50,149 nucleotides of DNA from an uncultured Clostridia bacterium (lineage in GTDB: Bacteria; Bacillota; Clostridia; HGM11327). The notes beneath the pieces are model-generated. The model was not told the origin of the DNA. It made no database searches and saw nothing but the letters and a program-made list of their open reading frames with translations. Shown here in pieces: positions 1,777-32,399 of the stretch. Position 1 is the first letter of the stretch; each line of letters begins with the position of its first letter. The DNA is taken from NCBI GenBank assembly GCA_945918795.1, contig CAMEIT010000011.1:1-50149 (forward strand). The letters are read 5' to 3'. The position numbers and the translations under genes are program-made.

Positions 1777-2538
1777 TCATTTATCCTCCTTTGCCTGTAT
1801 CTCGGCACTTCTGTCCTTGTAAACACCGAGAGGATAATAAGGTATCATTTTCTCGTCTACCCATTCAAGTGCCTTTTCGGGAGTCATGCCCCAGTTTGTA
1901 GGACAAGTCGAAATGACCTCAACAATGGAAAAGCCTTTATTGTTTATCTGATTTTCAAAAGCTTTCTTTATGATTTTTCTTGCATTGTTAATGTTTTTTA
2001 CGTTGTTTACGGCAACTCTCGCAATAAACTCGGGACCGTCCAGCGTAGAAAGCAACTCGCATACTCTTATCGGGTAGCCTACCGTCTTAACGTCTCTGCC
2101 GTAAGGCGATGTCTGAGTTACCTGACCCGGAAGTGATGTCGGCGCCATTTGTCCGCCCGTCATGCCGTAAATTGCATTGTTTACGAATATAACCGTAATA
2201 TTTTCATTTCTTGTTGCAGAATGAACAGTCTCCGCCATACCAATTGAAGCAAGGTCGCCGTCGCCCTGATATGTAAACACGATATTATCGGGATTTGCAC
2301 GCTTAAGACCCGTTGCAACAGCCGGAGCACGTCCGTGAGCCGCTTCAACCATATCGCACGCGAAATAATTGTATGCCATAACTGCACATCCGACAGGCGC
2401 AACGCCGATTGTTCTGCCCTCTATTCCCAGATCGTCTATTGCCTGAGCAACAAGGCGGTGAATTATACCGTGTGTACAGCCCGGGCAGTAATGAAGGGGT
2501 GTATCGGTAAGAGATTTCGGTTTGTCAAATACTATCAT
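1777..2538 (-). CDS. 2-oxoacid:ferredoxin oxidoreductase, beta subunit (TPP-binding)
   Basis: A 253-residue beta subunit that binds thiamine diphosphate. The family motif YCPGCTHG is near residue 18, and the TPP/Mg motif GDGDLASIG with the downstream [11 protein letters not shown] is visible. It forms the catalytic site together with the alpha subunit. The ATG at 2538 overlaps the alpha-subunit stop by one base (TGATG), and AGGAGG lies 9 bases upstream; a GTG one codon earlier (2541) is also possible. It is in the middle of the Val T-box operon. It could serve 2-oxoglutarate or branched-chain 2-oxoacids; I favour the latter from context. Confidence 0.9.
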
Positions 2539-3599
2539 CACATTTTACCTCCTGCGGCTTCTTCTATTTTTGCCAAAACCTGTTCCGGAGTCGGAATCAT
2601 TCCGCCTGCACGGTTGCAAAGCATTACAGGTCTTTGACAGCGTATTGCAAGCTCGACGTCCTCTATCATCTGTCCCATTGAAAGCTCGACAGATATGAAT
2701 GCTTTAGCCTTGTCGGCAGCATCAAGAAGAGTCTTTTTCGGGAACGGCCACAATGTTATGGGACGAATAAGTCCTGCCTTGATTCCCTTTTCACGAGCCG
2801 CAATTACGGCGTTTTTGGAAACACGAGCCGCAATTCCGAATGCAACAACGCAATATTCAGCGTCATCCATCATGAACGTTTCGCAACGTGCCTCATTTTC
2901 CTCAATAGTCTTGTATCTTTCGTATCTTGCAAAATTCTGCTGTTCCAATTCTTCCGGAACGAGGCTCAGAGAATTAATTATGTTATGCTTTCTCTGCATT
3001 TTCGTACCTGTCACAGCCCACGGCTTGTCAAACGTTTTTACCGAGTCAGCCGAAAGCTCAACAGGCTCCATCATCTGACCCATTGTGCCGTCTGCAAGAA
3101 TCATAGCCGTAACTCTGTATTTGTCAGCAAGCTCAAAGCCCGTAATGGTAAGATCCGCCATTTCCTGAACAGATGCCGGAGCGAGCACAATCATGTGATA
3201 GTCACCGTGACCGCCGCCTCTTGTTGCCTGGAAATAATCAGACTGTGACGGCTGAATACCGCCCAAGCCCGGACCTCCGCGCTGAACGTTTACTACCAAA
3301 GCAGGCAGGTCGCTTCCCGCAAGATAGGAAAGTCCCTCGCTCTTTAATGACATACCGGGGCTTGACGAGGATGTCATGACTCTGTATCCGGCGCTCGATG
3401 TGCCGTAAACCATATTTATTGCCGCAACCTCGCTCTCTGCCTGCAAGAACGTACCGCCTATTTTAGGCATACGCTTTGCCATATATGCTGCAATTTCAGT
3501 CTGAGGTGTAATAGGATACCCGAAGTAATGTCTGCAGCCTGCCAGAATCGCGGCCTCGGCAATAGCTTCGTTACCTTTCATAAGAACTTTATCTGCCAT
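2538..3599 (-). CDS. vorB: 2-oxoacid:ferredoxin oxidoreductase, alpha subunit (VorB-like)
   Basis: A 353-residue alpha subunit with the pyrimidine-binding domain of pyruvate:ferredoxin oxidoreductase first ([16 protein letters not shown], then [14 protein letters not shown]) and the transketolase C-terminal-like domain after it. Stand-alone proteins of this size in clostridia are commonly assigned to 3-methyl-2-oxobutanoate (2-oxoisovalerate) oxidoreductase, and I recognise the family on that basis. The ATG at 3599 is preceded by AAAGGA at 12 bases; an in-frame TTG at 3611 sits right on that site and is rejected. It is cotranscribed with the ferredoxin subunit (20-base gap) and the beta subunit (overlap). 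In the biosynthetic direction it would add CO2 to isobutyryl-CoA or 2-methylbutyryl-CoA. Confidence 0.88.
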
Positions 3600-3619
3600 T
3601 TTATATACCAATCCTTTCT

Positions 3620-3826
3620 TTACTTTTCTACTGTAATAATACAGTCAGGACACATAGTAGCGCAGAAAGCACATCCTATACATTTGCTCTGATCTGTAAT
3701 TTCCGCAGGAGAATGCCCTTTTTTATTGATTTTGTCCTTTGCAATAACAATCAGCTTTTTCGGACAAGCTCCCACGCAAAGTCCGCAGCCCTTGCAAAGG
3801 TCTGTTTTGAATGTCAATTTTGCCAT
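3620..3826 (-). CDS. 2x[4Fe-4S] ferredoxin, delta subunit of the 2-oxoacid oxidoreductase
   Basis: A 68-residue ferredoxin with two complete cluster motifs, CKGCGLCVGACP and CIGCAFCATMCP, each typical of a [4Fe-4S] cluster. In four-subunit VOR/KOR enzymes such a protein is the delta subunit that passes electrons between the TPP site and free ferredoxin. A strong site (AAGGAGAGG) precedes the ATG. It is the first of the four oxidoreductase genes, 20 bases before the alpha subunit and 64 bases after the P-loop ATPase. Confidence 0.93.
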   Translation of the reverse strand: MAKLTFKTDLCKGCGLCVGACPKKLIVIAKDKINKKGHSPAEITDQSKCIGCAFCATMCPDCIITVEK

Positions 3827-3890: not shown

Positions 3891-4568
3891 TTACACGTGT
3901 TTTATATCAAAATATTTTTTCTGAAGCGTCATTGGAAATACGCCCTCAAGCTTCTCCGATAAATCAAGCGCAACATTATTTTCCGCCGTTGTCATGATTA
4001 TCGGAATACCGCTCATCTGAGAAAGCTCTTCTGCAAGAGGCACTGTTTTCAGCACGTCATACGGCGATGTTTCCCAGCCTATGTTGGAATTGTTTGCAAT
4101 GGCAGTAAACATTATTCCGCACGCCTGCTCTATTTCGCGCATAACCTCGAGAGCGTCATTCGGTGTCTGAGTCAGCGGCCGATAGAAATTTGCCACAAAC
4201 ACCATTTCGTAATTGTTCTCTTCCAGAATATACGGAGTATATCTTCCGAGTGCAAGCGCTCCCCTGTCGTCTCCGCCTATATCCATTACAGCATATCTGT
4301 CTTTTCTCTCAACCAAGCTGTACAGCTCCTGCGGAAGTGCAGGCAGGTCAACGTTTGAATTTGCAAATGCCGAAGATATAAGCGGTATTCCCGCCGCTAA
4401 AAGCTCTGCCTCGCTGTCCTTCGTCCTGAAGTACGGATTTACTATATCAAGATCGGCAACGCTCACGTCATACCCGAGATTTTTGAGATAAAACGCATAA
4501 TTTACCGCAATATTTGTTTTGCCGCTGCCGTAATGTCCGGCAAAAAGTGTTACTCTTTTATGCTCCAT
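3891..4568 (-). CDS. P-loop ATPase of the MinD/CobQ-like type, function unknown
   Basis: A 225-residue nucleotide-binding protein. The Walker A motif GHYGSGKT is at residues 11-18, and VADLDIVNPYFRT follows, giving the deviant Walker/switch pattern of SIMIBI-class (MinD/NifH/CbiA-like) ATPases. No membrane segment or metal-binding cysteine pair is seen. The ATG at 4568 has GGGAGAGG upstream, while the longer reading frame starts without a site. It lies between the acyl-CoA synthetase (72-base gap) and the ferredoxin (64-base gap), so it belongs to the branched-chain operon. A role in maturing or activating the oxidoreductase, for instance in metallocluster handling, is only a guess. Confidence 0.7.
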   Translation of the reverse strand: MEHKRVTLFAGHYGSGKTNIAVNYAFYLKNLGYDVSVADLDIVNPYFRTKDSEAELLAAGIPLISSAFANSNVDLPALPQELYSLVERKDRYAVMDIGGDDRGALALGRYTPYILEENNYEMVFVANFYRPLTQTPNDALEVMREIEQACGIMFTAIANNSNIGWETSPYDVLKTVPLAEELSQMSGIPIIMTTAENNVALDLSEKLEGVFPMTLQKKYFDIKHV

Positions 4569-4640
4569 AAAATCCTCTCCCCCGAAAATACGGCTCATTC
4601 ATAGTATGATTCCGTATTTTTCGCCGTAAGGCACTAATTA

Positions 4641-6935
4641 TTACAGCTTGCTTCTTATTATTTTTCCGCTCGTCGTTTTAGGCAGTTCGTCCTTGAAAAC
4701 AACTATTCGCGGATATTTATAAGGCGCTGTTTTGTGCTTTACGTATTCCTGAATTTCTTTTTTAAGCTCATCCGTTGCAACGGTGCCCTTTGTAAGAACG
4801 ATACTCGCCTTGACTACCTGACCTCTCACATCGTCCGGAGCAGCAGATACTCCGCATTCCAATACATACGGAAGCTCCATTATAACATTTTCTATTTCAA
4901 ACGGTCCTATCCTGTATCCCGACGATTTTATAACGTCGTCAATACGTCCTACATACCAGAAAAATCCGTCCTCGTCTTTGTACGCCACATCGCCCGTATG
5001 ATACATACCGTCATGCCATGCTTCGTTTGTTTTCTCTTCATCAAGATAATATCCCTCAAACAGTCCGCACGGAACGCATTTGTCTGTTTTTACGACGATT
5101 TCGCCCGTCTGACCTACATCCACCGAATTACCGTCATTATCAACTATATCTATATCGTACGTCGGCACGGGCTTGCCCATTGAACCTATCTTGTGCGGTG
5201 CGCCTATAAGGTTACCTATCATAAGCGTGCTTTCGGATTGTCCGAAGCCCTCCATGACTTTAAGGCCCGTGAGCTTTTCAAGCTGCTTGAACACCTCGGG
5301 ATTGAGTGCTTCTCCGGCAATCGTTGCGTGCTCTACCGATGAAAGATCGTATTTGGTAAGATCTTCCTTTATCATCATTCTGTACATCGTAGGCGGCGCA
5401 CAGAAAGTTGTAATATGATACTTTGCAAACAGCGGAAGTATATCCGACGCATTGAATCTGTCAAAATCATATACGAACACAGCCGCTTCACACAGCCACT
5501 GTCCGTAAAGCTTTCCCCACATCGCCTTTGCCCAACCCGTATCGGAAATAGTCAGATGCAAGCCGTTCGGGTCAACGCAGTGCCAATATTTTGCCGTAAC
5601 AAAATGTCCGAGCGCGTACTTGTGATTGTGGGCGGCAATTTTCGGGTATCCGGTCGTTCCCGATGTAAAGAACATGAGCATTAAATCATTGCCTTTCGGC
5701 GAATCTGTCGTTTTCTCGAATTTACTGCTGTAAAGCGTATATTCCTCATCAAAATTATGCCAGCCGTCACGGTTGCCGTTTACTATTATCTTTGTTTTGA
5801 GTCCCGGGCAATCCTCTGCCGCGAGCTCTGCCTGATGAGCTGTGTCGCCGTCTGCCGTACACAATATTGCGCTTACTCCTGCGGCATTGAATCTGTACTC
5901 AAAGTCATGCTCCTGAAGAAGATTTGTCGCAGGTATTGCAATAGCGCCGAGCTTGTTGAGTCCGAGCATTGCAAACCAGAACTGATAATGTCTTTTAAGA
6001 ACAAGCATTACCCTGTCGCCCTTTTTTATACCCAAAGCCTTAAAATAATTTGCACACTGTGATGATGCCCTCTTGATGTCGCGGAATGTGAAAATCCTTT
6101 CCGTTTTATTTCTGTCAAGATGCACCATTGCGGTTTTGTCGGGCTTTTGTGTACCCAATACATCGACTACATCAAATGCGAAATTAAATTCATCTGCATT
6201 TTTGAATTCGACCTTTACGGGTGTACCGTTTGCATCGGTCCGGGTATCTATCCACTTTTTATAAACGCGATTTTCCGCCTCATCTCCGATATACCTCGGC
6301 GAATAAGGAGTCGTTGCTTTTTCTTCGGAAAGCTCCGGTATAGGCTCGCCCGACGGATTCAGCACGATTGCATAGAACAAGCAATCCTCGCCCTCGACAG
6401 CTATCATTCCGTGCGGAGTTGAGCTGTCGTAATATATGCTGTCACCCTCATGAAGAATTTCCTTATGAGAGCCTATCTGCACCATGAGTGCGCCTTTTAT
6501 TACAATATCGCATTCCTGTCCGTCATGCGTTGTAAGCTCAATATCTTTCCTCTGAGCATCCTCACTGAACGAGGCATTAACAAGAAGCGGCTCTGCTATC
6601 CTGTTTTTGAAGGTTGAGGCAAGATTGTAGTAAACCATGCCGTGAGCTTTTTCAATTCTCTTGCCGTCGCCCTTGCGAGTCACGGTATAAGATGCAAGCG
6701 TAGGGCTTGTACCCTCAATTATATCCGTGACATCAACGTTAAACGCCAACGCACAGCGATAAATAAAGGCAAACGTAAGATCCGATTTTCCGTTTTCGCA
6801 CGCAATATACTCATCAAGAGACACATCCGTTTTGCGCGCCATTTCTTCAGCCGAAAGGCCTTCGATTTCACGAAGCTCCCGTATTCTGGCTGACATTTCC
6901 TGTAGCCTGTAATCAAGCCCGGTGATCTGTTTCAT
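4641..6935 (-). CDS. XRE-HTH + cupin + acyl-CoA synthetase fusion (Val T-box regulated)
   Basis: A 764-residue three-part protein. Residues about 10-75 form an XRE-type helix-turn-helix, and about 115-195 a cupin with candidate metal ligands H137, E141 and H175. The rest, from about 245, is an AMP-forming acyl-CoA synthetase of the medium-chain (ACSM-like) group. The adenylation motif TSGTTGYPK is at 424-432, the hinge region reads GRIDDVIKSSGYRIGPFE, and the C-terminal catalytic lysine lies in LPKTTSGKIIR. The HTH-cupin half resembles small-molecule-sensing repressors. The ATG at 6935 follows AGGAGG; an open upstream extension is only T-box leader. It heads the operon with the ATPase, the oxidoreductase and ilvE. 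The substrate is inferred to be a branched short-chain acid such as isobutyrate. Confidence 0.85.
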   Translation of the reverse strand: MKQITGLDYRLQEMSARIRELREIEGLSAEEMARKTDVSLDEYIACENGKSDLTFAFIYRCALAFNVDVTDIIEGTSPTLASYTVTRKGDGKRIEKAHGMVYYNLASTFKNRIAEPLLVNASFSEDAQRKDIELTTHDGQECDIVIKGALMVQIGSHKEILHEGDSIYYDSSTPHGMIAVEGEDCLFYAIVLNPSGEPIPELSEEKATTPYSPRYIGDEAENRVYKKWIDTRTDANGTPVKVEFKNADEFNFAFDVVDVLGTQKPDKTAMVHLDRNKTERIFTFRDIKRASSQCANYFKALGIKKGDRVMLVLKRHYQFWFAMLGLNKLGAIAIPATNLLQEHDFEYRFNAAGVSAILCTADGDTAHQAELAAEDCPGLKTKIIVNGNRDGWHNFDEEYTLYSSKFEKTTDSPKGNDLMLMFFTSGTTGYPKIAAHNHKYALGHFVTAKYWHCVDPNGLHLTISDTGWAKAMWGKLYGQWLCEAAVFVYDFDRFNASDILPLFAKYHITTFCAPPTMYRMMIKEDLTKYDLSSVEHATIAGEALNPEVFKQLEKLTGLKVMEGFGQSESTLMIGNLIGAPHKIGSMGKPVPTYDIDIVDNDGNSVDVGQTGEIVVKTDKCVPCGLFEGYYLDEEKTNEAWHDGMYHTGDVAYKDEDGFFWYVGRIDDVIKSSGYRIGPFEIENVIMELPYVLECGVSAAPDDVRGQVVKASIVLTKGTVATDELKKEIQEYVKHKTAPYKYPRIVVFKDELPKTTSGKIIRSKL

Positions 6936-6964: not shown

Positions 6965-7002
6965 AAAAACCCGTCCCAAAGATATGATTTCTTTGAGACG
7001 AG
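6965..7002 (-). terminator. T-box-controlled terminator of the Val leader
   Basis: An intrinsic terminator inside the leader: stem CGTCTCAAAGA/TCTTTGGGACG, then GGGTTTTTG. It competes with the antiterminator formed by the T-box core. It is nearly identical to the terminator in the Ile leader at 9704-9744, as expected for duplicated units. Confidence 0.9.
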
Positions 7003-7249
7003 TTATAAATCACATTTATACCCGCGGTACCACTCAAATTGCAGCGGAAAAACCGTGCCCCTTTCAGACTCAAACAAGTCCTATGCGTTTACGCAGCATA
7101 ACGGGAAAGTTCTACTCACGCAAGAAGCGTTTTCTTCTTTCCGACTCAGAAGCTACCGACATTGAAAACACATTACCGACAGCTCACACCAAACGCCGCC
7201 TCTCTGAAAAGTATGTTGTTTTCCGTCCTCTTCGTCAACGTCTTTAATT
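6965..7249 (-). ncRNA. T-box leader, predicted Val (GUA) specifier
   Basis: A T-box riboswitch on the minus strand in front of the synthetase-VOR-ilvE operon. Stem I carries AGAGAG and GGTGTGAG elements. The specifier region reads GTA-G-CTTC-TGAG, putting the codon GUA (Val) at 7156-7154; the same alignment in the pheS leader gives UUC. The T-box core GAGTGGTACCGCGG is at about 7021-7035, with a UGGU bulge that fits an A73 tRNA. It is followed by a terminator hairpin (6971-7002, arms CGTCTCAAAGA/TCTTTGGGACG) and a T-rich tail. Uncharged tRNA-Val should allow read-through. T-box identity is very secure; the codon call is moderately secure. Confidence 0.92.
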
Positions 7250-7255
7250 TAGGCA

Positions 7256-7284
7256 ATTATATCATATCTTAAGTATAATGTCAA
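7256..7284 (-). promoter_or_regulatory. Sigma-A promoter of the Val T-box operon
   Basis: Minus-strand consensus promoter: TTGACA at 7284-7279, a 17-base spacer and TATAAT at 7261-7256. Transcription should start near 7249, just before stem I of the T-box. Confidence 0.9.
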
Positions 7285-7318: not shown

Positions 7319-9589
7319 TTACAGCTTATTTCTCTGTATTTTGCCGCTTATTGTTTTCGGAAGCTCGGTTCTGAATTCAACTATTCTCGGATATTTGTAC
7401 GGAGCTGTATGCTTCTTTACGTATTCCTGTATTTCCTTTTTGAGTTCCTCTGTGCCCTCTACTCCCTTTACAAGAACAATGCTTGCTTTTACTACCTGAC
7501 CTCTTATTTCATCAGGTGCCGCAGATACGCCGCATTCAAGTACATACGGAAGCTCCATTATAACGTTTTCTATTTCGAAAGGTCCTATGCGGTATCCGGA
7601 CGATTTGATAACGTCGTCTATTCTGCTTACATACCAGAAATATCCGTCCTCATCTCTCCATGCAACGTCTCCCGTATGATACATACCGTCATGCCACGAA
7701 TCCTTTGTTTTCTCCTCGTCGAGGTAATATCCGTTGAAAAGACCGCACGGTGCTTTTTTATCTGTTCTGATTACAATTTCGCCGTTTTCACCTATTCCGA
7801 CAGGTTTGCCGTCGCCGTCAACAATATCAATATCGTAAAGCGGAACAGGCTTGCCCATTGAACCCGGTCTCGGCGTCGTACCTCTCAGAGTACCTATCGT
7901 AAGCGTTGTTTCCGTCTGACCGAAGCCCTCGTTTATCTGAAGTCCGGTTGCTTTTTCAAACTGATAGAATACCTCCGGGTTAAGAGCTTCACCCGCTGTT
8001 GTAGCACGATGTATTGAGCTTAAGTCAAATTTTGAGAGATCGTCCTTTATAAACATACGGTACATTGTAGGCGGTGCGCAGAATGTTGTAATGTTGTATT
8101 TTGCAAACATGGGCATTATATCCGACGCATGGAATCTTTCAAAGTCGTATACGAATACAGCGCCCTCGCAAAGCCACTGTCCGTAAAGCTTGCCCCAAAG
8201 AGCCTTTCCCCAGCCTGTATCCGATATTGTGAAGTGCAGGCCGTCGCGTTCAACGCAATGCCAATATTTTGCCGTTATATAGTGCCCGAGAGCATATTTA
8301 TAGCTGTGAGCCGCAATCTTCGGATATCCGGTTGTGCCGGATGTAAAGAACATTATCATGTTGTCGCTTCCGCAAGCCGTATCCTCCGTTCTTGCGAACT
8401 TGCCGCTGAAAAGATTGTACTCTTCGTCAAAATTTCTCCAGCCTTCGCGCTCGCCGTTTACTATTATCTTTGTCTTTACCTGAGGACATTTTGCCGCAGC
8501 GAGGTCAACCTGATGCGCCGTGTCACCGTCTGCCGTACACAATATTGCGCTGACTCCTGCGGAATTGAAGCGGTATTCAAAATCATGCTCAAGAAGCTGA
8601 TTTGTTGCCGGTATGGCGATTGCGCCGAGCTTATGCAGACCGAGTATTGCAAACCAGAACTGATAATGTCTTTTGAGTACGAGCATTACTCTGTCGCCCT
8701 TTTTAATTCCGAGCGACTTAAAATAATTCGCACACTGTGCCGATGCACGCTTTAAGTCCTTGAATGTAAAGCGTCTTTCCGTCTTGTCGTTTGAAACGTG
8801 TATCATGGCAAGCTTGTCGGGATACTTATCGGCTATTGCGTCTATCGTATCAAATGCGAAATTATATTTTTCCTCATCATTAAACGATATTGCAGTCAGG
8901 CAACCGTTTTCGTCCTCTGTGCAGTTAATGAATTTCTTTGCAAGCAGATCCTCCGACCTTCCGGCGGAAACTATGCTCTGATGAATCTCTTTTTCATCAA
9001 CATTTTCCTCACCCGGAAGCACGACAGCGCAGAAAACGCAGTCGGCACCGTCAACAGCTATCATGCCGTGCGGTGTTCCGCTGTCATAATATATGCTGTC
9101 GCCTTCATGAAGCACAACAGTATGCTTGCCCACCTGCACCTTGAGACTGCCGCTGACTATGAGGTCAAATTCCTGACCGCTGTGTGTTGTGGTATGTATC
9201 GGGAGCTTCTGCTGTTCCTCGGAATATTCGTATTTAACCCAATACGGTTCTGCGATTTTGTTTCTGAACAGCGGAGCAAGATTGCTTATTTCTATGCCGT
9301 ATTCCTTTGCGGTAAGCTGACCCTCGCCCTTGCGCGTAACTGTAAAAGATGAAAGCTTGGCGCTGTGACCTTCAAGAATATCCGTAATTTCAATATCAAA
9401 AGCAATCGCGCATTTATGAATGAACGTAAAAGGTAAATCTGCTTTTGCATTTTCATACATTACATATTCATCTGTTGTAACATCTGTTTTATCCGCCATT
9501 TCTTCCACGGAAAAACCCATTATGTTTCGCATCTCTTTTATTCTCGATGCGACTTCCTCCAATCGGCTTAAAGCGTTGTCATTTGCCAT
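7319..9589 (-). CDS. XRE-HTH + cupin + acyl-CoA synthetase fusion, paralogue (Ile T-box regulated)
   Basis: A 756-residue paralogue of the synthetase at 4641-6935 with the same three parts: HTH at about residues 10-70, cupin at about 115-190 and ACSM-like AMP-forming synthetase after that. It keeps FFTSGTTGYPK, GRIDDVIKSS-like (SRIDDVIKSSGYRIGP) and LPKTISGKIQR. The synthetase halves are strongly similar over long stretches, while the HTH-cupin halves have diverged more. The ATG at 9589 is chosen because GAGGAG lies 8 bases upstream; the in-frame ATG two codons earlier is too close to that site. It is its own transcription unit, ending just before the promoter of the next operon. The inferred substrate is 2-methylbutyrate, from the Ile T-box. 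Confidence 0.85.
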   Translation of the reverse strand: MANDNALSRLEEVASRIKEMRNIMGFSVEEMADKTDVTTDEYVMYENAKADLPFTFIHKCAIAFDIEITDILEGHSAKLSSFTVTRKGEGQLTAKEYGIEISNLAPLFRNKIAEPYWVKYEYSEEQQKLPIHTTTHSGQEFDLIVSGSLKVQVGKHTVVLHEGDSIYYDSGTPHGMIAVDGADCVFCAVVLPGEENVDEKEIHQSIVSAGRSEDLLAKKFINCTEDENGCLTAISFNDEEKYNFAFDTIDAIADKYPDKLAMIHVSNDKTERRFTFKDLKRASAQCANYFKSLGIKKGDRVMLVLKRHYQFWFAILGLHKLGAIAIPATNQLLEHDFEYRFNSAGVSAILCTADGDTAHQVDLAAAKCPQVKTKIIVNGEREGWRNFDEEYNLFSGKFARTEDTACGSDNMIMFFTSGTTGYPKIAAHSYKYALGHYITAKYWHCVERDGLHFTISDTGWGKALWGKLYGQWLCEGAVFVYDFERFHASDIMPMFAKYNITTFCAPPTMYRMFIKDDLSKFDLSSIHRATTAGEALNPEVFYQFEKATGLQINEGFGQTETTLTIGTLRGTTPRPGSMGKPVPLYDIDIVDGDGKPVGIGENGEIVIRTDKKAPCGLFNGYYLDEEKTKDSWHDGMYHTGDVAWRDEDGYFWYVSRIDDVIKSSGYRIGPFEIENVIMELPYVLECGVSAAPDEIRGQVVKASIVLVKGVEGTEELKKEIQEYVKKHTAPYKYPRIVEFRTELPKTISGKIQRNKL

Positions 9590-9703
9590 AACCATATCTC
9601 CTCAGTTAATATTTATAAAACCTCAATATTGTTTTCAACATGAATCCGTGTTCTGTACACAATACAGCCTGTCTTCCCGATGTTACATACAGAGCAATAC
9701 CCA

Positions 9704-9744
9704 TAAAAAAAGCTCGTCCCAAAGTTATATTCTTTGAGACGAGC
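9704..9744 (-). terminator. T-box-controlled terminator of the Ile leader
   Basis: Stem GCTCGTCTCAAAG/ CTTTGGGACGAGC followed by a run of seven T on the minus strand. It is the alternative fold to the T-box antiterminator. Confidence 0.9.
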
Positions 9745-9975
9745 ATATATACATATATAATACCCGCGGTACCACTCAAATTGCGACAGTTACCTGCCAC
9801 CTCTTTTAAGGCTTTGCACTTACGCAGCATTTTCGGAAGATGTCTACTCGCATACAGCTTTCGGACCTTCAGCTCGGAAGGGATTGGAACTTGAGTTGGC
9901 TTACTACCGGGCTCACACCATCCCCGGCTCTCTGAGAGAAGATTCACTCGTCCGTCTTCGTCATCGCTTTTATCG
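9704..9975 (-). ncRNA. T-box leader, predicted Ile (AUC) specifier
   Basis: A second T-box riboswitch, upstream of the second synthetase. Stem I has AGAGAGCCGG and GGTGTGAGCC elements. The specifier region reads ATC-C-CTTC-CGAG, putting AUC (Ile) at 9884-9882. The base after the codon is C rather than the usual purine, which lowers certainty. The T-box core GAGTGGTACCGCGG lies at about 9763-9776, and a terminator (9712-9744) with seven T follows. The leader ends about 115 bases before the start codon, longer than for the Val leader. Confidence 0.9.
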
Positions 9976-9980
9976 GCAAT

Positions 9981-10009
9981 ATAATACCACATATTTTATA
10001 TTTTGTCAA
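9981..10009 (-). promoter_or_regulatory. Sigma-A promoter of the Ile T-box unit
   Basis: Minus strand: TTGACA at 10009-10004, a 17-base spacer and TATTAT at 9986-9981, directly before the T-box leader. Confidence 0.88.
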
Positions 10010-32165: not shown

Positions 32166-32196
32166 TAAAAAAAACTCGCCACAACTAAGGGGCGAG
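32166..32196 (-). terminator. T-box-controlled terminator of pheST
   Basis: Stem CTCGCC / GGCGAG with a 10-base loop, followed by eight T on the minus strand. Confidence 0.9.
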
Positions 32197-32399
32197 GGAA
32201 ACTCACGGTACCACCCAAATTAATACTCGTACGGCAAAGTAACGCTGCCAAACGTCAATACCTACAACAAAAAAGCTTCAGTATGATACTCCGAAGTGAA
32301 CTTCAATATTCCGCATCATAAACAGGCTCACAGCCCAAGACCCATTTTCTCTGTTTTCAGCTGAAATATCTACTCTCTTCATCACAGTAACTAATGATT
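32166..32399 (-). ncRNA. T-box leader, Phe (UUC) specifier
   Basis: T-box riboswitch of pheST on the minus strand. Stem I has GATGAAGAG, AGAG and GCTGTGAGCC elements. The specifier region reads TTC-A-CTTC-GGAG, so the codon at 32300-32298 is UUC (Phe), matching the gene it controls. The T-box core GGGTGGTACCGTG is at about 32205-32217. A terminator stem CTCGCC/GGCGAG with eight T ends the leader. It validates the alignment used for the two other T-boxes. Confidence 0.96.

Follow-up and report, generated by a model that had tools for sequence, protein, structure and literature searches.

The minus-strand leader at positions 6991-7247 of the window (the whole stretch of DNA analysed, 50,149 nucleotides in length) is very probably a class I T-box that senses tRNA-Val and turns on an operon dedicated to valine synthesis via reductive carboxylation. 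In the mechanism we propose, uncharged tRNA-Val(UAC) would pair through its anticodon with a GUA specifier and through its ACCA end with a UGGU bulge, favoring the antiterminator and allowing the operon to be read. The acyl-CoA synthetase encoded first (ACS1) would then convert isobutyrate to isobutyryl-CoA, VorDABC would use CO2 and reduced ferredoxin to carry the latter to 2-ketoisovalerate, and IlvE would yield valine by transamination. A paralogous synthetase under tRNA-Ile control, ACS2, would activate 2-methylbutyrate and thereby feed an isoleucine branch.

The Leader Is a Complete Class I T-Box

The RNA at 6991-7247 is confirmed as a complete and regular class I T-box. An Rfam covariance search over 501 bases aligned it with the whole of the RF00230 model (positions 1-219 of 219; 81.7 bits, E 3.1e-18), the check that an earlier note on this DNA had proposed, though the score stays below the 93-bit gathering cut-off, which is why a default Rfam scan comes back empty for this leader. 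The pheS T-box in the same window (32185-32394, 92.4 bits) likewise falls short, and 9 of the 16 T-boxes in the genome score below the gathering cut-off; the threshold is strict for these leaders, and an empty default scan is misleading.

All elements lie in order on the minus strand. The leader is preceded by a sigma-70 promoter (7256-7284) that matches the consensus at 12 of 12 positions, with TTGACA and TATAAT separated by 17 nt and a TG before the -10 box, and that ranks at the top of 27 candidate sites scanned in 10.4 kb. Further along, a T-box bulge UGGU (7029-7032), complementary to the 3' ACCA of the tRNA-Val(UAC) encoded in the genome, is contained in an antiterminator UUUGAG...CUCAAA (6991-7038, -11.2 kcal/mol), followed by an intrinsic terminator with a U run (6968-7004; 15 pairs, core hairpin -14.6 kcal/mol). 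Antiterminator and terminator have in common the 12-base CUCGUCUCAAAG, and as is characteristic of class I T-boxes they are mutually exclusive and stand upstream of the regulated gene, here ACS1. The minimum free energy fold of the whole leader is uninformative, with a z score of -1.35. Across aligned leaders, 97.3% of helix cells are paired as against 83.3% in shuffles (0/500), and 21 of the 24 pairs of the Stem I, II and III helices have changed on both sides. The earlier note had ascribed all T-box parts to the span 6965-7284, which begins at the start of the -35 box (7284) and ends just beyond the terminator, and this is borne out by the full-length model match, the bulge, the two alternative hairpins and the covariation.

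A Proposed Valine Operon Follows the Leader

Behind the leader, seven genes follow on the minus strand. ACS1 (4641-6935), our proposed isobutyrate-CoA ligase, joins an XRE-type helix-turn-helix (HTH) and a cupin domain to an AMP-forming acyl-CoA synthetase, whose AMP-binding (220.5 bits) and AMP-binding_C (74.1 bits) domains are both over cut-off, confirming the earlier note's placement of a Val T-box before such an enzyme. A CbiA/MinD-like P-loop ATPase (3891-4598) is below the Pfam cut-off and is kept in these operons. Next come vorD (3620-3826), a 68-aa ferredoxin-type subunit with ferredoxin Cys motifs that is conserved before vorA; vorA itself (2538-3611), of the 3-methyl-2-oxobutanoate dehydrogenase subunit VorB family (NF005507, 546 bits, cut-off 399); vorB, the beta (TPP) subunit (1777-2541), above the PF02775 and below the TIGR02177 cut-off; and vorC, the gamma subunit (1236-1826; TIGR02175, 82.9 bits, cut-off 81.1). 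These four are predicted to supply all subunits of a 2-ketoisovalerate:ferredoxin oxidoreductase (VOR). The branched-chain aminotransferase ilvE (128-1222; TIGR01123, over cut-off) completes the series. The contrast that the earlier note drew with ilv genes does not hold, because the ACS1 operon, with vorDABC and ilvE, is itself part of a valine pathway.

We infer that ACS1 to ilvE are co-transcribed. The alternative, that the T-box governs ACS1 alone and that the ATPase, vor and ilvE genes have a promoter of their own, would make for a smaller regulon and is unlikely: a promoter-like site does precede vorD (3910-3882, minus strand, 10 of 12 matches), but sites of such quality arise by chance in the scan, the gaps between genes are short (42, 64 and 8 bases, then overlaps), and within the operon the terminator scan turned up no strong candidate on the minus strand. 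In other genomes, moreover, the vor operon stands behind another branched-chain T-box. Of eight vor operons fetched where ACS1 stands alone, one follows an Ile T-box with ACS2 and four a leuA-type gene that has a pair of T-boxes, of which the first reads CUC (Leu); the operon of L161 is cut off by its contig end, and near those of L164 and L167 no T-box was seen. In L168-L171 the order is tandem T-boxes (first CUC), leuA, an AMP-binding/TIM-barrel fusion, ilvE, the ATPase and vorDABC. A leuA relative is also present in the window's genome, so that leucine, too, could come from 2-ketoisovalerate.

Two Paralogues Carry Two Specifiers

A second class I T-box, absent from the earlier note, lies 2.7 kb upstream of the first on the same strand (9732-9973, 73.9 bits, E 3.1e-14), with a sigma-70 promoter of 11 of 12 matches (9981-10009), a specifier reading AUC (Ile; 9882-9884) and a terminator found by the terminator scan (9712-9744). 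It precedes ACS2 (7319-9595, minus strand), a proposed 2-methylbutyrate-CoA ligase that is 68% identical to ACS1 and is likewise fused to the N-terminal, regulator-like HTH and cupin part. The genome holds a third relative (G000:C33:23629-25260; 46%) that has no HTH-cupin part and contains one in-frame TAA.

The arrangement of T-box, ACS2, T-box, ACS1, ATPase, vorDABC and ilvE recurs in relatives, mainly from the guts of ruminants and other animals. A T-box precedes ACS1 in 76 of 80 related loci, all 76 codons being GUA or GUC, and the ACS2 T-boxes show AUC in every case in which a specifier was obtained; vor genes follow ACS1 in 56 of the 80, several of the remaining loci ending at a contig edge. 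An order-level search gave only the window's own genome, and a class-level sample was used, in which the Val/Ile pattern recurs: 26 of 30 synthetase loci are T-boxed, 11 with GUA (the window's own included) and 15 with AUC. The other four, which show no T-box motif, come from the genomes of one family (f13) that has kept ilvC. A T-box is thus not universal on these synthetases, being missing in 4 of the 80 loci and throughout that family; with the Rfam model none was found in L053, L064, L067, L096, L143 or L152.

In a tree of 158 synthetases, the switch between Val and Ile specifiers occurs exactly once, and only 7 of some 763 alignment columns set the two groups of enzymes apart (at the level of at least 90%). 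The sole fully fixed difference in the catalytic domain, immediately following the GW-motif Trp, is A469 in the Val enzyme and G463 in the Ile enzyme, a position that we take to correspond to Val310 of acetyl-CoA synthetase, which is part of the acetate pocket. The AlphaFold model of ACS1 is moderate (pLDDT 68.5) and weak at this place (below 50 for residues 466-472), so the assignment of A469 to the pocket comes from sequence alignment; an Ala in the clade proposed to use a C4 acid and a Gly in that proposed to use a C5 acid would fit the sizes of the substrates, offering a one-residue hypothesis of substrate choice. The closest solved structure, the acyl-adenylate synthetase of Methanosarcina acetivorans (PDB 3etc; 47% identical over the catalytic part), has Gly at the clade-separating position, as in the Ile clade, and presumably prefers 2-methylbutyrate. 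Its solved chain differs from ACS1 in having no HTH-cupin part, and to our knowledge T-box control would not be expected in an archaeon such as its source.

Among curated families, the best match of both synthetases is MbcS (NF047394), in which membership was rejected at 450.4 and 445.6 bits against an equivalog cut-off of 850; with so wide a gap the substrate of ACS1 cannot be named by family. Should ACS1 and ACS2 chiefly provide branched acyl-CoA to prime branched-chain fatty acids, as MbcS does, the T-box would serve only as a proxy for branched-chain supply. We regard this as improbable, since beyond the rank of MbcS as best NCBIfam model the score lies far under its cut-off, vorDABC and ilvE continue the operon, and a primer function would not require separate tRNA specificities for the two paralogues, although the synthetases may serve both purposes. 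Valine and isoleucine synthesis would account for these pairings: a T-box specifier in effect tags a pathway by what it finally makes, and the two specifiers here point to isobutyrate as the likely substrate of ACS1 and 2-methylbutyrate as that of ACS2.

The Classical Route Is Missing

The window's own genome, which is 94.8% complete, lacks IlvB, IlvC and IlvD. Across the 27 genomes with ACS1, made up of this one and 26 others, ilvC, ilvD and ilvB are each over cut-off in a single genome (G023), and one more (G015) has ilvD and ilvB relatives under cut-off; VorB is present in all 27. In control genomes, all three genes are present in 14 of 14. Among 147 genomes of the class, ilvC occurs in 6 of the 32 with a full-length ACS as against 75 of the other 115 (Fisher p 4.5e-6, shared ancestry being ignored), and most of the genomes compared are draft MAGs. 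A route to isoleucine from propionyl-CoA via 2-oxobutyrate was considered and rejected, as it would still need the absent ilvBCD.

The same absence weighs on the direction of the pathway. Gut Clostridia ferment amino acids and oxoacid:ferredoxin oxidoreductases are reversible, so the operon could in principle be degradative, taking valine to isobutyryl-CoA from which ACS1 would release isobutyrate. Such a role is very improbable and was rejected on two grounds, namely that T-boxes turn genes on when an amino acid runs short, the opposite of what breakdown would call for, and that with ilvBCD absent the cell could not make valine at all without the isobutyrate route; AMP-forming synthetases, in addition, favor acyl-CoA formation.

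The Specifier Codon Reads Valine

Specifiers were read as three bases followed by one unpaired base and then the lower Stem I helix, the "+0" frame that is preferred among the three frames admitted in TBDB (PMC7778990). On the Val leader this rule gives GUA at 7156-7154, followed by an unpaired G (7153) and the helix CUUC (7152-7149) paired with GAAG (7233-7230), all on the minus strand. Applied by eye in the same genome, it returns the expected codons for pheS (UUC), metG (AUG), proS (CCC), ileS (AUC), trpE and trpB (UGG), asnB (AAC) and hisS (CAC); it misfits thrS and yields no clear codon for valS. The thrS T-box (L010, G000:C31:22770-22977), with a UGGA bulge, gives GCC and not ACN by the lower-helix rule, and the valS T-box (L016, G000:C6:38998-39196) is weak, at 61.3 bits, with an unusual Stem I.

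The codons of the ACS1 leaders were parsed automatically, with three misread and one unparsed case read again and cross-checked by alignment. Over 47 leaders, the window's and 46 from relatives, the codon columns hold G in 47, U in 47, and A in 44 or C in 3, while the flanking columns vary (T in 43 and G in 4 before the codon, G in 41 and A in 6 after it). The helix adjoining the specifier is paired in 100% of leaders and has compensatory changes in three of its four pairs. The earlier note's reading of GUA, aligned on the CTTC stem as UUC is for pheS, is therefore upheld by the rule, the alignment and the covarying helix, and it agrees with the function encoded downstream, a vor-ilvE valine operon. 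It is highly improbable that the T-box is real and senses some other tRNA, for instance through GGU (Gly) one base earlier, a triplet that is present in the window because the base before GUA is here a G and that another of the TBDB frames would admit: GU is invariant with a third base of A or C while the bases on either side vary, the same rule is correct for pheS, metG, ileS, trpE and others of the genome, and the UGGU bulge requires a discriminator A, which tRNA-Val has.

A Regular T-Box with an Unusual Target

In architecture the Val leader resembles the known class I T-boxes (RF00230; B. subtilis ilv-leu and tyrS; TBDB), with which it shares Stem I with the AG bulge and specifier loop, Stems II and III, the UGGN bulge, the antiterminator and the terminator, and the Val, Ile and Leu specifiers (GUA/GUC, AUC and CUC) are the ones usually preferred. 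It differs in its target, here an acyl-CoA synthetase with a ketoisovalerate:ferredoxin oxidoreductase and not ilvBCD or valS. No earlier report of such a target was found in the literature covered, which does not include the main surveys (Vitreschak 2008; Gutierrez-Preciado 2009). The target is thus unusual, as the earlier note had stated, but only as regards the enzymes controlled, the logic being that of an ordinary T-box on an operon that makes valine by an alternative set of enzymes. The same note had also seen in the T-box direct evidence of the synthetase's physiological product. It does inform on the product, but "direct" is too strong: combined with the operon content, the missing ilvBCD and the match of paralogues with specifiers, the Val T-box is strong indirect evidence of what the pathway makes.

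Microbes of the rumen and hindgut take up isobutyrate, 2-methylbutyrate and isovalerate and build amino acids from them, a biochemistry that dates from the 1960s and 1970s. Rumen tracer work established the conversion of isobutyrate to valine and of 2-methylbutyrate to isoleucine (Allison and Peel 1971; Robinson and Allison 1969, as cited in PMC7356843), and the overall conversions of this branched-chain volatile fatty acid carboxylation pathway are those proposed here; the pathway was described by tracer biochemistry, whereas we now propose particular genes for it, organized in an operon and controlled through tRNA. The operon thus offers candidate genes and substrates for the rumen route, and the combination of T-box, ACS and vor with no ilvBCD provides a simple genomic marker of dependence on cross-fed branched-chain acids. 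More tentatively, the HTH-cupin part might be a second sensor, with the synthetase binding its branched acid or its acyl product and acting on transcription; the operon would then be gated by tRNA charging (need) as well as by how much precursor is available, and each T-box/enzyme pair would form its own amino-acid-specific circuit, parallel to the other, in organisms dependent on their neighbors' branched-chain volatile fatty acids. We consider this possible but doubtful.

Other T-boxes of the same genome precede further genes of interest. At L097 (G000:C17, 5256-11646, minus strand), a Tyr (UAC) T-box is followed by an AMP-binding ligase, frameshifted in this assembly, IorA and IorB (indolepyruvate:ferredoxin oxidoreductase), a GyrI-like protein and a PaaK-type (phenylacetate-CoA) ligase, an arrangement suggesting that aromatic amino acids are made from aryl acids under T-box control, by the same logic as in the Val operon. 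Another Tyr (UAC) T-box (L005/L098, G000:C37:19802-20057, minus strand) precedes a PutP-like sodium:solute symporter, which may transport tyrosine or an aryl acid, and a GCA (Ala) T-box (L002, G000:C4:40935-41168) precedes an aminotransferase that is likely an alanine transaminase.
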